Source of the DNA: an uncultured Halomicronema sp.
GTDB lineage: Bacteria > Cyanobacteriota > Cyanobacteriia > Phormidesmidales > Phormidesmidaceae
NCBI GenBank assembly: GCA_937899725.1
Contig: CALCCA010000187.1
Location: 1 to 64,000, forward strand
Direction of reading: 5' to 3'
Length of the DNA stretch: 64,000 nt
Shown one piece after another: positions 6,631-21,222 of the stretch; within the stretch, counting starts at the first letter, position 1, and the number at the start of each line of letters is the position of its first letter. Below the pieces are notes generated by a model. That model was not told where the DNA came from. It saw only the letters and a program-made list of their open reading frames with translations, and ran no database searches. Position numbers and translations under genes: made by a program.

Positions 6631-7116
6631 TAGACTGCGGCGTGATTTCACCAACCATTGCCAATGGCTAGGGAGGCGTGGGGGCAAGGGGGCCAGAGAA
6701 CTGGAATAGCCGTCTTACTGCTGCCGTGGCGTACTAGGGCGGCCAGCGGCCCTACTGCGCACCGTCGCTTTTGATCAGTTCTTAGCAGGCATGGGGAGAA
6801 GCGGCCCAAAGCCTCTTGATGCCGGGCGTTGCACGGTTGAGGGCTGACAGCAACTTGTCTGTTCTAAGGATGTGCTTGAAGCGCCCCGCCCTTGCGATTG
6901 CCCAGAGATTATCCTAACCTTCTCTTAACCTGTTGTGAGGTTTCCCTGACGTGGCGATCGCGGCGGCCTGAATTTGGTGACCGCCAAAATCCTTAAGCGT
7001 TTCTCAGGAAAATCTCAGGTAACCAGGGTTAATTGACTTCAGGTGTCTTTACGAGTCACTCTGCCCAGTCTTCATGTTTAAGACAGTTCATTTCCAAAAC
7101 TGAGGGGAAAATCCTA
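6631..7116. other. Intergenic region carrying a candidate Pho box
   Basis: No gene is supported. Between the deacetylase-like gene and the DPCAA lipoprotein the only distinct signal is the direct repeat at 6913-6931, followed by A/T-richer DNA (to about 7035) that could hold the promoter. Confidence 0.5.
6913..6931 (+). promoter_or_regulatory. Candidate Pho box (PhoB/SphR-type direct repeat)
   Basis: The sequence reads CCTAACCT, TCT, CTTAACCT: two eight-base units separated by three bases. That is the arrangement and near-consensus (CTTAACCT) known for phosphate-starvation regulator SphR/PhoB sites in cyanobacteria. It lies about 185 bases upstream of the small DPCAA lipoprotein start. Regulation by phosphate is inference. 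Confidence 0.5.
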
Positions 7117-7371
7117 ATGAATGCAAAATATTTTGGTGCGCTGGCCATTGCAGCAACCTTAACGGTCGGCACTGTGGGTTGCGCGACGGGCAGCGACCCC
7201 TGCGCGGGTACGACTGATACCGAAACCGTTGATCCTTGCGCGGCTGACCCCTGCGCCGCCGACCCCTGCGCCGCTGACCCCTGCGCCGCTGACCCCTGCG
7301 CGGCTGACCCTTGCGCCGCTGACCCTTGCGCCGCTGACCCTTGCGCCGCTGACCCTTGCGCCGCTGAATAA
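7117..7371 (+). CDS. Small lipoprotein with nine DPCAA pentapeptide repeats
   Basis: A protein of 84 residues. It starts with MNAKYFGALAIAATLTVGTVGC, a short lipoprotein signal with lipobox TVGC (Cys22), so it should be lipid-anchored in a membrane facing the periplasm. After a brief spacer containing one DPCAG it consists of nine perfect DPCAA units ending in Glu. The mature protein thus carries about eleven evenly spaced cysteines and many aspartates, suggesting metal binding or disulfide cross-linking, but no function is known to me. The ATG at 7117 is preceded by GAGGGGAAAA; the open frame upstream lacks a signal sequence. A strong terminator follows. A candidate Pho box lies upstream. 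Confidence 0.85.
   Translation: MNAKYFGALAIAATLTVGTVGCATGSDPCAGTTDTETVDPCAADPCAADPCAADPCAADPCAADPCAADPCAADPCAADPCAAE
7231..7365 (+). repeat. Nine in-frame 15-bp tandem repeats (DPCAA codons)
   Basis: Nine adjoining 15-base units of the form GAyCCyTGCGCsGCy vary only at wobble positions (GCC/GCG/GCT and CCC/CCT), so the protein repeat is perfect while the DNA has drifted slightly. Copy number is likely to vary between strains by slippage. Confidence 0.95.
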
Positions 7372-7721
7372 CTTTTTAACGGTCTGAACAGCCTTCAAGC
7401 CTATGAGTCGTGACTCATAGGCTTTTTTAATGGCTGCAGGACTTGCGCCAAACCCTTGTCCTGTTGAGCCGGAAACGTCGCCAGTGACGTTGGCAGCGTT
7501 CTACAGCTTGAGCCGGTTGAGGGCAACCGCTCACGACGTGCGCGCAACTGGTCCAATGATGCAACCGGTGTCGCCATTAATAATTACGATTTGGGCGCAG
7601 CGCGGCAGCTTGCATAACGGCCTGTGTTCACGTGAAATGTCTGTAGAGACATCACAACGGCCTGCGGGAACACTGGCCTGAGCAATTGTTGAAACCAGCC
7701 TCACTTTAGCAACAGGAGACA
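7372..7721. other. Intergenic region, terminator then nothing recognised
   Basis: Apart from the terminator at 7397-7428 I see no gene, RNA or repeat. AGGAG at 7714-7718 is the ribosome binding site of the next gene. Confidence 0.6.
7397..7428 (+). terminator. Rho-independent terminator of the DPCAA lipoprotein gene
   Basis: AAGCCTATGAGTC (7397-7409) pairs perfectly with GACTCATAGGCTT (7412-7424), followed by a T-run to 7428. It sits 25 bases after the stop codon. Confidence 0.92.
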
Positions 7722-9686
7722 ATGGTGGCGAAAGTATCTCAACTGCAAGCAATCATGGCAATCGCGACGGCGGCGGCCATTGTGCAGCCGACCGGTCGGG
7801 CGATCGCTGATACTACCGTGCCAGAGGCGGCTCAACATCTGCCACCCGATTTGGCCTACGTCATCTTGCTCGATACCCGCGACGAAACGTGGCAGCAGCT
7901 CGAACAATACGCCCTCGTGCAGCAGTTGCAAGCGGAAATCGGGGCACCCCTGGATATCGGCGGACTGCCCTTTTTGCCCACTGAGCTGGATTACCAAACC
8001 GACGTTGCCCCTTGGCTCGGCGACACAGTGGCCGTGGCACTCATGCCGTTAGACACAGCCGACAGCACCCTGTCAGTCGTCACCGCGCTCGCAAACCACG
8101 AGGTGCTGATTGCCCCGATCGCTCAATCTAGCGAGTTCAGCGGGTTTATCGAGACGGTCAGCGAGCTGCGCGGTACCGCACCGGCAGTCGAGACCTATCA
8201 GACAATCGATATTCTTTACTGGCAGCCGCAAGACCTAACGCTAGACGATGATTTCTTCACGCCACTCCCTGACGAGGCCCCCCCGGACTCTGCCGCCCCG
8301 CTGCCGCTAGACCCCGCCGATCAGCAGGGAGCGGACTCGAGCCCGGCACCCTTGCCAGTAGACTCCTCGGTTCCCGATGAGACGATTGACGAGCCGATTG
8401 ACGAGCTGCCCGCAGAATTCCCCGATCCGACCGCCGCCGACTTCCCTTTTCCCGACATCCCCGGCTTGGCGATCGCCGTGCTGTCAGACGTGGTCGTCGC
8501 CGCCGAAAACCCAGTCGCTCTGCGCACTTGGTTTGATCAGCGGCCAGAGACCGCAACCGCGGCCCTCGCCACCGACGATAGATTTCTGCGGACGCTGGCC
8601 CATCCTGAATATGATGGGGCGCTGGGCATTGGCTATGGCAACCTATCAGAAATGGTCAAGTATTCTTTGACCGACTTGGCGGTGCCGGACCTGTTCCCTA
8701 GTGGCGCTCTGCCTCCCGATATTTTTTCGCCTGATCCGGCGCAGCTGGCTGCCTTAGACATCGATAGCAGCATTGAAGTCTTCATTTATCCCACCGCTCA
8801 GGGCATTCGCGTACAGGGCCGCGGCTATTATGACGACCCGCTTTTACAAACTTTGTTGGCGGTCAATGAGCCGGCTCCGCAACAGGTACTAGATTATATT
8901 CCGGGCAATAGCTATGGTTTGTTTAGCAGTCAGGACCTAGCTGCTGCTTGGCAAGAAGCTTCAGTCATCCTGGAGGCCGAGGAGGAAACCAGTGCGGCTC
9001 TAGAGCAGGCTCGGAGTTTTTTCACCCTTGCCACCGGCCTCGACCTCGATCAAGATGTCTTTAGCTGGATGGATCAGGGCTTTAGTGTCTTTCTATTCCC
9101 CACCGAAGACACCCCTCTGACCACCTTTTTACCGGGCTTGGACATTGGCCTCGGCGTCGCGTTACAAACCAGCGATCGCGCCACCGCCGAGGCCACGTTA
9201 GCGCAACTCGATCAGACTTGGGGCACCGGCGTTGGCATTACGGTCGCGACTCAGGCAGCCGCAACAGGGACGATCTCAAGCTGGCAGACTGACCTCGATA
9301 GCGATGGTCAGCTCGACAGTTTTCTGGGACATGGCTGGGCCAGCGACGATACGCTCATCTTGACCAGCAGTCTGGGCTCCCTCTCCAGCGTTCTATCGTT
9401 AGAACCCGCTCAAGCCCTGCCAAACGCGCTGCGGTTTTTAGGCTCTACCGAAGACTTTCCCGCCGACAATCAAGGCTACGTCTTCGCCAATCTGGCCCCT
9501 GTCCGAGCACTGGCAGCCCGCTTCTTTCCCGTGATGTCGGGTGATCCAGAACTACAAGAGTTTTCTCGGCTGTTGGGCTCGCTCAAAGCCATCAGCGGCA
9601 CCCTCGCTTTTGAAGAAGACTATCTTCAGATTGATGGCATGGTGATGTTGGCCCCCGCCACCGTCCCATGGGAACAGCCTGAGTAA
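7722..9686 (+). CDS. Secreted DUF3352 protein
   Basis: A protein of 654 residues with an N-terminal signal-like segment (MAIATAAAIVQPTGRAIA, residues about 12-29) and the DUF3352 opening LPPDLAYVILLDTRDETWQQL. This family is common in cyanobacteria, is exported and has no established function. Residues about 180-240 are a Pro/Asp/Ala-rich linker (for example LPLDPADQQGAD) that splits the domain into two halves; the second half contains repeated globular motifs such as GYVFANLAPVRALAARFFPV. The start has an ideal AGGAG three bases before the ATG. It lies 350 bases after the DPCAA lipoprotein, beyond a terminator, so it is a separate unit. Confidence 0.85.
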   Translation: MVAKVSQLQAIMAIATAAAIVQPTGRAIADTTVPEAAQHLPPDLAYVILLDTRDETWQQLEQYALVQQLQAEIGAPLDIGGLPFLPTELDYQTDVAPWLGDTVAVALMPLDTADSTLSVVTALANHEVLIAPIAQSSEFSGFIETVSELRGTAPAVETYQTIDILYWQPQDLTLDDDFFTPLPDEAPPDSAAPLPLDPADQQGADSSPAPLPVDSSVPDETIDEPIDELPAEFPDPTAADFPFPDIPGLAIAVLSDVVVAAENPVALRTWFDQRPETATAALATDDRFLRTLAHPEYDGALGIGYGNLSEMVKYSLTDLAVPDLFPSGALPPDIFSPDPAQLAALDIDSSIEVFIYPTAQGIRVQGRGYYDDPLLQTLLAVNEPAPQQVLDYIPGNSYGLFSSQDLAAAWQEASVILEAEEETSAALEQARSFFTLATGLDLDQDVFSWMDQGFSVFLFPTEDTPLTTFLPGLDIGLGVALQTSDRATAEATLAQLDQTWGTGVGITVATQAAATGTISSWQTDLDSDGQLDSFLGHGWASDDTLILTSSLGSLSSVLSLEPAQALPNALRFLGSTEDFPADNQGYVFANLAPVRALAARFFPVMSGDPELQEFSRLLGSLKAISGTLAFEEDYLQIDGMVMLAPATVPWEQPE

Positions 9687-10750: not shown

Positions 10751-11080
10751 ACCAGTGAGCACGTGGCTCAACAAGAGCCTTCCTGAGCCCAAGGATTGGG
10801 TCGCGCCCAACCCTGACTGAAAAACGTGTGTGTCCTGATGATGAGATTGAGACGCCACTCCCTGACCATCGGCAATCCGCCTAGGCGTGGGAGCAGCTAC
10901 CCGCCAATCGGCTCAAGGTGTCGAGCCAGATCGGGGTGATTCAGGTCATCCCATGCCAATACCCTTCATCCTTAAGCCCTGAACCCGGCAGTCTACTCAA
11001 CAGCCAAAAACCAGGATCTACTCAGCGTTTTCTTAGGTAGATGTCCGATGCTTGGGGAGAACAGCCTTGAGGAATTCATC
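10751..11080. other. Intergenic region, nothing recognised
   Basis: No supported gene or structured RNA. The final bases hold GAGGA ahead of the next start codon. Confidence 0.5.
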
Positions 11081-11524
11081 ATGGTGAGTAAACAGAACGT
11101 GGGTGGACGAGTCCCGCTCGTATTGTTTTTGCTGCGGTTGGGCGTGTTTATTGTGATGCTGGTTTGGGCGCTCGATAAATTTTTTGCCCCCGAGCATGCC
11201 AGTCAAGTCTTTGCCGCTTTTTATGGTCTGCAGGGGTTAGGGCGATCGCTGGTGTATGGCATCGGTACCGTTCAGCTCCTGCTGGTTTTAGGATTTATGG
11301 CGGGCTTCAAAAAAACCTGGACCTATGGTGCCGTGCTGCTTATGCACGGGCTGTCGACGCTGGTTTCGTTCGCCCGCTACCTCGACCCGTTTACGCCGCC
11401 TAACATTCTCTTTTTTGCCGCTTGGCCAATGCTAGCCGCCTGCTTTGGGCTATTTTACTTGCGCGATCTTGACACCCTGTGGACGTTGGATAAGGACAAA
11501 CCTCACAAACAAATCAATGTGTAG
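11081..11524 (+). CDS. DoxX-like small membrane protein
   Basis: A protein of 147 residues with four predicted transmembrane helices (roughly 11-30, 50-72, 78-98 and 106-126) and a charged C-terminal tail ending DKDKPHKQINV. Topology and the start LLRLGVFIVMLVWALDKFF recall the DoxX/DoxD superfamily of small quinone-linked or structural membrane proteins, but the match is by overall character only. The ATG at 11081 follows GAGGA with seven-base spacing; an earlier in-frame ATG at 11048 is less well placed. A perfect terminator follows, so it is monocistronic. Confidence 0.7.
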   Translation: MVSKQNVGGRVPLVLFLLRLGVFIVMLVWALDKFFAPEHASQVFAAFYGLQGLGRSLVYGIGTVQLLLVLGFMAGFKKTWTYGAVLLMHGLSTLVSFARYLDPFTPPNILFFAAWPMLAACFGLFYLRDLDTLWTLDKDKPHKQINV

Positions 11525-20802: not shown

Positions 20803-21222
20803 ATGACCTTCAACTTTTCGATTGACTATTTACCTAAACTGCTATTAGCGGTGGTTAGCACGAGCACTATCCTGATTGGCAACTCCCAATTAGCCCAGGC
20901 CCAAACTGCTCCCGTGACTAGAACGATTAACGCCCAGACGACTATTGTCGATTTTGACGGGCGCACTCAATTTGGTGTGGGTGGCGTCGTGCCGCCTGGC
21001 GTGGGCATTATCCCTGCCGTGGGTGTTGTCCCCCCTGGCGTGGGCATTATCCCTGGCGTTGGCGTCGTGCCGCCTGGCGTGGGTGTTGTACCTGGTATGG
21101 GTGCTACTGCCATGCCTAATATTGGTGGTGGTGCACCCGGGGGGCGGGGTGTCGGTATTCCTAATGTTGGTGACGTTAGCCAACCCGGTGCTAGAAGTTT
21201 TGGCATCACGCGACCTCGCTGA
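20803..21222 (+). CDS. Exported protein with elastin-like VPPGVG repeats
   Basis: A protein of 139 residues. The N-terminus carries a signal-like hydrophobic segment (KLLLAVVSTSTILIGNSQLAQAQ). The middle, encoded by 20977-21102, is a low-complexity array of units such as VVPPGVGIIP and GVGVVPGMG, resembling elastin-type VPGVG repeats. The tail is Gly/Pro-rich (GGGAPGGRGVGIPN). No enzyme motif; an extracellular or periplasmic flexible, structural role is inferred. ATG at 20803 follows GGAG with good spacing; the open frame from 20728 adds 25 non-signal residues. Function unrecognised. Confidence 0.78.
   Translation: MTFNFSIDYLPKLLLAVVSTSTILIGNSQLAQAQTAPVTRTINAQTTIVDFDGRTQFGVGGVVPPGVGIIPAVGVVPPGVGIIPGVGVVPPGVGVVPGMGATAMPNIGGGAPGGRGVGIPNVGDVSQPGARSFGITRPR
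20977..21102 (+). repeat. In-frame repeats coding GVGVVPPGVGIIP units
   Basis: Three imperfect units of about 42 bases encode VVPPGVGIIPAVG, VVPPGVGIIPGVG and VVPPGVGVVPGMG. The DNA units differ at several wobble positions. Confidence 0.85.

Follow-up and report, generated by a model that had tools for sequence, protein, structure and literature searches.

The gene studied here is a short member of a family of Cys-repeat proteins that has a conserved promoter box of its own and a thiol-enzyme neighbourhood, which is a better statement than the phosphate-starvation lipoprotein that an earlier note had made of it. It lies in a 64-kb stretch of DNA that was analysed as a whole and is called the window in the following; the source genome is that of an uncultured Halomicronema sp. 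We propose, with somewhat less than even confidence, that its product is an inducible, exported and lipid-anchored polythiol that would buffer soft metals (Cu(I) first) and thiol oxidation, in a bufferin-like manner. The argument turns on these features:

6913 to 6931, forward strand: Pho-like box, CCTAACCT-TCT-CTTAACCT, 185 bases ahead of the ATG
7002 to 7018, forward strand: conserved direct repeat TCTCAGGAAAATCTCAG with an 11-bp period, the shared upstream motif
7028 to 7033, forward strand: putative -10-like GTTAAT, 9 nt past that box (TTAAT after 10 nt)
7117 to 7371, forward strand: Cys-repeat lipoprotein coding sequence, 84 aa with 11 Cys, stop TAA at 7369-7371
7117 to 7182, forward strand: predicted signal peptide and lipobox, assigned by eye, the codon of the lipidated Cys22 at 7180-7182
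7231 to 7365, forward strand: nine DPCAA repeats, from the tandem-repeat call and the repeat comparison
7397 to 7424, forward strand: intrinsic-terminator-like hairpin, 12 pairs and then a T run

The open reading frame, the nine perfect DPCAA repeats and the Cys count that the earlier note had described are all confirmed. The N-terminus reads MNAKYFGALAIAATLTVGTVG|C..., where the lipobox Cys of TVGC (Cys22) follows a hydrophobic signal, as judged by eye; the open reading frame encodes MNAKYFGALAIAATLTVGTVGC..., after which come one DPCAG and nine uninterrupted DPCAA. We infer export and lipidation of the protein from this arrangement. At the DNA level, a 15-bp array covers 7226-7367 (9.5 copies, TRF score 214), and its nine 15-base repeat units differ from their own consensus at 8 positions, all 8 synonymous, thus the DPCAA peptide appears to be maintained. 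Since 11 of the 45 single changes possible in a unit are synonymous, 8 of 8 would arise by chance at about 1e-5, a value that presumes independence, while the units are copies of each other and so not independent. The downstream terminator is likewise present as described, although the hairpin scan, with one found against 1.3 expected in shuffles, is not significant by itself. Pfam has no family for the protein up to E 1, the YHS domain being among those absent, and the plasmid collection gives no match at E <= 0.01.

A scan of genome contigs found matches at 45 loci in other genomes, 25 of which were examined in detail alongside the window, and the resulting alignment (A1) holds 21 short proteins, including that of the window. 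Its members share a similar start; Tyr5 and the lipobox Cys are found in at least 90% of its rows, and the Cys bears out the idea of a membrane-anchored Cys-rich peptide. Repeat number and frame in relatives, which the earlier note had wished to see compared, came out as follows: the [DN]PCA[AGS] repeats are kept, copy number and spacers vary, and the frame looks broken in L131 and L166. These two belong to one genome, in which the partner genes, too, give partial or fragmented matches. The C-terminus of L026 is shifted. Pentapeptide-repeat proteins fold as a beta-helix on the pattern A(D/N)LXX, and a fold of this kind was considered by analogy for the DPCAA chain; the variable spacers of the relatives argue against it.

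Similar N-termini and repeats also head YHS proteins (L054, from the source genome, and L051) and a DM13 fusion (L021), and the WCxxC motif marks thioredoxin-like fusions in L115, L129, L132, L136 and L140, the last of which was checked further. This is a cyanobacterial family of predicted exported Cys-repeat proteins, either short lipoproteins or YHS, DM13 and thioredoxin-like fusions. The family profile matches 78 of the 252 cyanobacterial genomes surveyed, all of the same class, with some of the matches near E 1e-3 likely to be low-complexity. Nothing in the titles and abstract openings of the papers listed was recognised as this family. Outside the cyanobacteria, N/DPCAA arms precede CxxCH-containing domains on four Rhodobacteraceae contigs and one Ectothiorhodospiraceae contig, and these arms may be convergent. 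The Rhodobacteraceae proteins (L016, L034, L036 and L045) share a C-terminal CAACH motif and a conserved neighbourhood, and L016 has a sub-threshold match to cytochrome P460.

The promoter box, TCTCAG-N5-TCTCAG, went without mention in the earlier note. For counting it, 69 genes were reduced to 39 by dropping those that share an upstream 25-mer, so that L009 represents the window, and 11 Cys-repeat open reading frames without a recognised family start were excluded. At least 10 of the 12 bases are present upstream of 28 of these 39 non-redundant genes, at least 11 before 21, and all 12 before 12. The corresponding means over 200 shuffles are 0.66, 0.05 and 0.005 (never more than 4 at the lowest threshold), and a reverse-complement control gives 5, 0 and 0; the sequences behind these statistics are related, and part of this set is where the motif first came to notice. 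Of the 39 genes, 16 were added only later, and 8 of these carry the box, including 7 of the 10 outside the thioredoxin type. With at least 10 bases required, the box precedes 21 of 25 short members, 6 of 7 YHS fusions, 1 of 6 thioredoxin-like fusions and not the single DM13 fusion; the members without it count against our proposal. Across 23 loci, sites with at most one mismatch number 11 in the 300-bp segments upstream of the genes versus 5 elsewhere on the two strands (630 kb of strand), and 3 of those 5 precede other family genes by reading. The perfect site at 7002-7018 is the sole site with at most one mismatch in the window.

Of the 28 box-bearing genes, 7 have TTAAT at 8-14 nt past the box, where 0.73 would be expected; a sigma-70 consensus scan found no promoter. 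The E. coli PhoB sites described in the passages found of one paper are direct repeats with an 11-bp period, 10 bp ahead of the -10 element (PMC1906773). TCTCAG-N5-TCTCAG is probably a binding site for a regulator of the OmpR/PhoB type. Two-component systems lie near the Cys-repeat genes of L011 (2062-4281) and L025 (4299-6674). NblR is a nutrient-stress regulator, and the regulator near L011 scores best as NblR, with 274.6 bits against a cut-off of 300; it is a candidate for the box, and we name no binder. A similar regulator lies near L025. Control by a CopRS-like system was also considered and rejected, as two-component genes do stand near some relatives but are of differing types; the passages found of the CopM paper (PMC4335983) contain no CopR motif.

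The earlier note had placed the gene under phosphate control, on account of a direct repeat with a TCT spacer about 185 bases upstream. This repeat is indeed present, with 1 mismatch to CTTAACCTN3CTTAACCT. Within the window it is not strongly beyond chance, as one or more matches with up to 3 mismatches turn up in 12 of 100 shuffles. The 7-Mb genome has two sites with 1 mismatch, this one included, and 8 with up to 2 mismatches, where the reversed pattern gives 0, and two pstS loci carry 3-mismatch boxes of the same layout, weaker than that of the window. These points, together with the NblR-nearest regulator near L011 and the similar one near L025, are what a lipoprotein of the Pho regulon, induced by phosphate starvation, has in its favour. 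The other seven Pho-like sites in the genome adjoin no gene recognised by eye as a phosphate gene. The CTTAACCT-type repeats, in tandem and spaced by 3 bp, that characterise the Pho regulon are here two in number, and the 8-mers with at most 3 mismatches include neither of the in-phase neighbours (6902 and 6935), while SphR is reported, in the passages found of the same source, to bind at least three repeats (PMC1906773). Moreover, the conserved TCTCAG box is nearer the gene.

Conservation of the Pho-like box in relatives, the lack of which the earlier note had named as a refutation, largely failed: among the other 25 loci it is kept in L009 (2 mismatches) and L010 (3), and the other 23 have at least 5, with just 84 bp of upstream sequence in the comparison for L015. 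At least 13 of its 16 bases are found in 3 of the 39 non-redundant genes, against 0.09 expected, namely L009, L010 and L124 (a YHS fusion, 3 mismatches). For this lack of broad conservation, the Pho-like box was rejected as the general main regulator. The box itself looks genuine, but the case for phosphate control is weak overall, and we regard a Pho-regulon lipoprotein as quite improbable; the Pho-like box may add phosphate control in the lineage of the window gene alone.

A second line of evidence for the polythiol comes from two partner genes. Neighbour clustering over 36 sources brings out two genes: at 7 loci a lipoprotein with a SUMF1/FGE-sulfatase domain is encoded upstream, and at 9 loci there is a cupin. 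The profile of this cupin identifies it as a 3-His thiol dioxygenase (mercaptosuccinate dioxygenase is matched at E 4.6e-15), and its fold is supported by a model with a mean pLDDT of 83 and by structure search matches; H114, H116 and H168 are invariant in 10 rows, which by alignment would make them the three His ligands. No signal peptide was seen in it by eye, so the dioxygenase is probably unable to act on the exported protein. It occurs in 108 of the 252 genomes (E <= 1e-40) and the SUMF1-like protein in 27 (E <= 1e-50). The dioxygenase is present in 65 of the 78 family-positive genomes versus 43 of the 174 others (Fisher 1e-18), and each of the 27 genomes with the SUMF1-like protein also has a family match (Fisher 4e-16), P values that are overstated since the genomes are related. 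More telling is that the genes sit close together across many families of the class: in 37 of the 65 genomes with both, no more than 3 kb separates a family gene from the dioxygenase gene, and the same holds for the SUMF1 gene in 10 of the 27. Some secondary match rows were dropped from this tally, with all 78, 108 and 27 genomes kept. In the source genome, the dioxygenase and SUMF1 genes form a divergent pair on C141, a different contig from that of the window gene, which counts against our proposal.

Considering this association of the SUMF1/FGE-domain lipoprotein with the family, it could be that this or another enzyme modifies the repeat Cys to give a metallophore-like product, the Cys-repeat protein being a RiPP-like precursor. 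The nearest NCBIfam model to the window protein, CefA (NF038108), is named as a RiPP and likewise has Cys at every fifth residue; it matches 10 of the 21 family members at E <= 0.1, weakly (best E 6e-5), and the window protein, at 19.7 bits, falls short of the curated cut-off of 30. Of the family-positive genomes, 51 of 78 lack a SUMF1 protein at E <= 1e-50, which speaks against such processing. The SUMF1-like lipoproteins match PF03781 (E 3e-37 and 4e-38), and a CX4C copper pair is a feature of FGE. Their loop GC[SA]WDDLPGFC is invariant, with C272 and C281 kept, and holds no CX4C, while the printed alignments to solved structures end before the copper site. Among solved relatives, ToxD, SUMF2 and CalU17 score best, and FGE scores lower; the structure model, with a mean pLDDT of 59.9, was not used. 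With the source genome lacking an MNIO match as well (below), we consider a RiPP-like precursor unlikely.

The closest known systems are the bufferins (Buf1/DUF2282 and Buf2) and HvfA/oxazolins, which are also small exported Cys-rich proteins, some of them lipidated. Bufferins are exported Cys-rich copper buffers, a few of which are fused to cytochrome c and an FGE-sulfatase, according to the passages found of one paper (PMC12452194); redox-domain fusions thus form a further likeness to the present family, and a link to DoxX in one relative of the window gene, L028, where a DoxX gene with a sub-threshold HvfX match is directly downstream, forms another. The repeat differs, being DPCAA in the window protein rather than EGKCG or the Buf patterns, and, unlike bufferins, the family is linked to a thiol dioxygenase and a SUMF1 lipoprotein and has its own promoter box. 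By eye, the window protein has what an exported Cys-rich precursor of bufferins and other MNIO RiPPs should have, a lipobox signal and 11 Cys. Membership fails on the enzyme, as MNIO (PF05114) has no match at E <= 0.001 in the source genome, rated 99.98% complete; in the control, the same search gave matches in 2 of 14 genomes. No bufferin Pfam model matches the window protein, and just one of the 21 family members matches HvfA, with an E of no better than 0.017. Some family members are a YHS (seleno)protein (NF041384) with a Cys-repeat arm, whereas that of the window is without YHS.

The TCTCAG box extends to other genes of the source genome, which has 42 sites with at most one mismatch versus 16 for a reversed-pattern control, so that over a third of the 42 may be due to chance. 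For identifying the genes behind the boxes, 10 proteins, one of them from another genome, were run against Pfam. Both YHS_seleno proteins of the genome are preceded by the box (a Cys-repeat YHS protein on C88, with two sites, and another on C175), as are a DM13 protein (C9), an adenylate/guanylate cyclase (C92) and a DUF4079 protein (C204), and an ECF sigma factor with an RskA-type anti-sigma factor (C146) has two sites upstream. A DsbA-like thioredoxin (C209) follows two perfect sites, and a TIGR01244 sulfur-transferase gene lies 285 bp past a 1-mismatch box. No copper exporter or plastocyanin was recognised by eye among the box-bearing genes, which counts against our proposal, and neither YHS nor DM13 occurs in a copper-response paper (PMC4182526). 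In nine other genomes, hand-picked among family-positive ones with their family matches known beforehand, there are 18 perfect sites versus 6 of the reversed pattern, and 7 of the 18 precede family genes by reading.

The DsbA-like and sulfur-transferase genes, the thiol dioxygenase neighbour and the thioredoxin-like fusions would all fit the main rival to our proposal, envelope thiol/sulfur homeostasis rather than metals, where the protein would act as a disulfide or persulfide buffer and the dioxygenase would clear excess cytosolic thiol. The YHS domain is metal-binding, and this points to metals instead. FGEs are cuproenzymes in the passages found of PMC12452194, which points the same way. 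We therefore hold this rival to be possible though doubtful. The same YHS domain and FGE chemistry, with the parallel bufferin-cytochrome-FGE fusions, are the reason why copper is our first guess, and a buffer is the simplest role because the inducible lipid-anchored thiol chain has redox partners.

We propose the following mechanism for the polythiol buffer. Transcription would be turned on under stress, mainly by an OmpR/PhoB-type response regulator at the TCTCAG-N5-TCTCAG box, with the upstream Pho-like box as a possible extra phosphate control in one lineage only. After export and lipidation, the protein would present nine evenly spaced DPCAA Cys and one DPCAG Cys, besides the lipidated Cys, as a polythiol facing the non-cytoplasmic side of the membrane, where it would sacrificially buffer thiol oxidation and soft metal ions, with Cu(I) as the first candidate. 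The state of its Cys might be handled together with the co-regulated or neighbouring DsbA-like, YHS and DM13 proteins, the SUMF1/FGE-domain lipoprotein and the cytosolic thiol dioxygenase. Metal binding or cross-linking by the peptide, as the earlier note had suggested, is plausible and indirectly supported by the SUMF1/FGE-domain and thiol dioxygenase partners and the YHS, DM13 and thioredoxin-like fusions.

More broadly, there could be a cyanobacterial envelope system, undescribed so far, in which exported polycysteine arms, whether they stand alone or carry a YHS, DM13 or thioredoxin-like domain, Cys processed by the SUMF1 lipoprotein, the dioxygenase and the TCTCAG regulon would form an MNIO-independent counterpart of bufferins, a speculative extension to which we give little weight. 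In either form, a widespread family for which no description was found (78 of 252 genomes, some matches weak) is tied to a DNA element and two enzymes, and a "hypothetical protein" becomes part of a testable regulon. This also suggests that cyanobacteria may have exported polythiol buffers that do not need MNIO chemistry, the defining trait of bufferins.

Several minor observations concern the surroundings of the gene. Adjoining it, 7722-9686 (forward strand) encodes a DUF3352 protein (E 1.5e-57) with an acidic Pro/Asp-rich stretch. Further along, 11048-11521 (forward strand) encodes a small membrane protein, DoxX-like by eye and with a sub-threshold MauE match; a 2-mismatch TCTCAG box stands just ahead of it at 11020-11036, one of four such in the window, where 4.65 are expected, and this gene is possibly in the same regulon as the window gene. 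A 39-bp tandem repeat of 2.6 copies occupies 20982-21089. Elsewhere in the genome, L171 (C22) and L174 (C63) are near-alike segments that run from a DoxX-like gene to an ABC transporter and both carry a CTTAACCT-type repeat; they represent either a duplicated genome region or an assembly effect.
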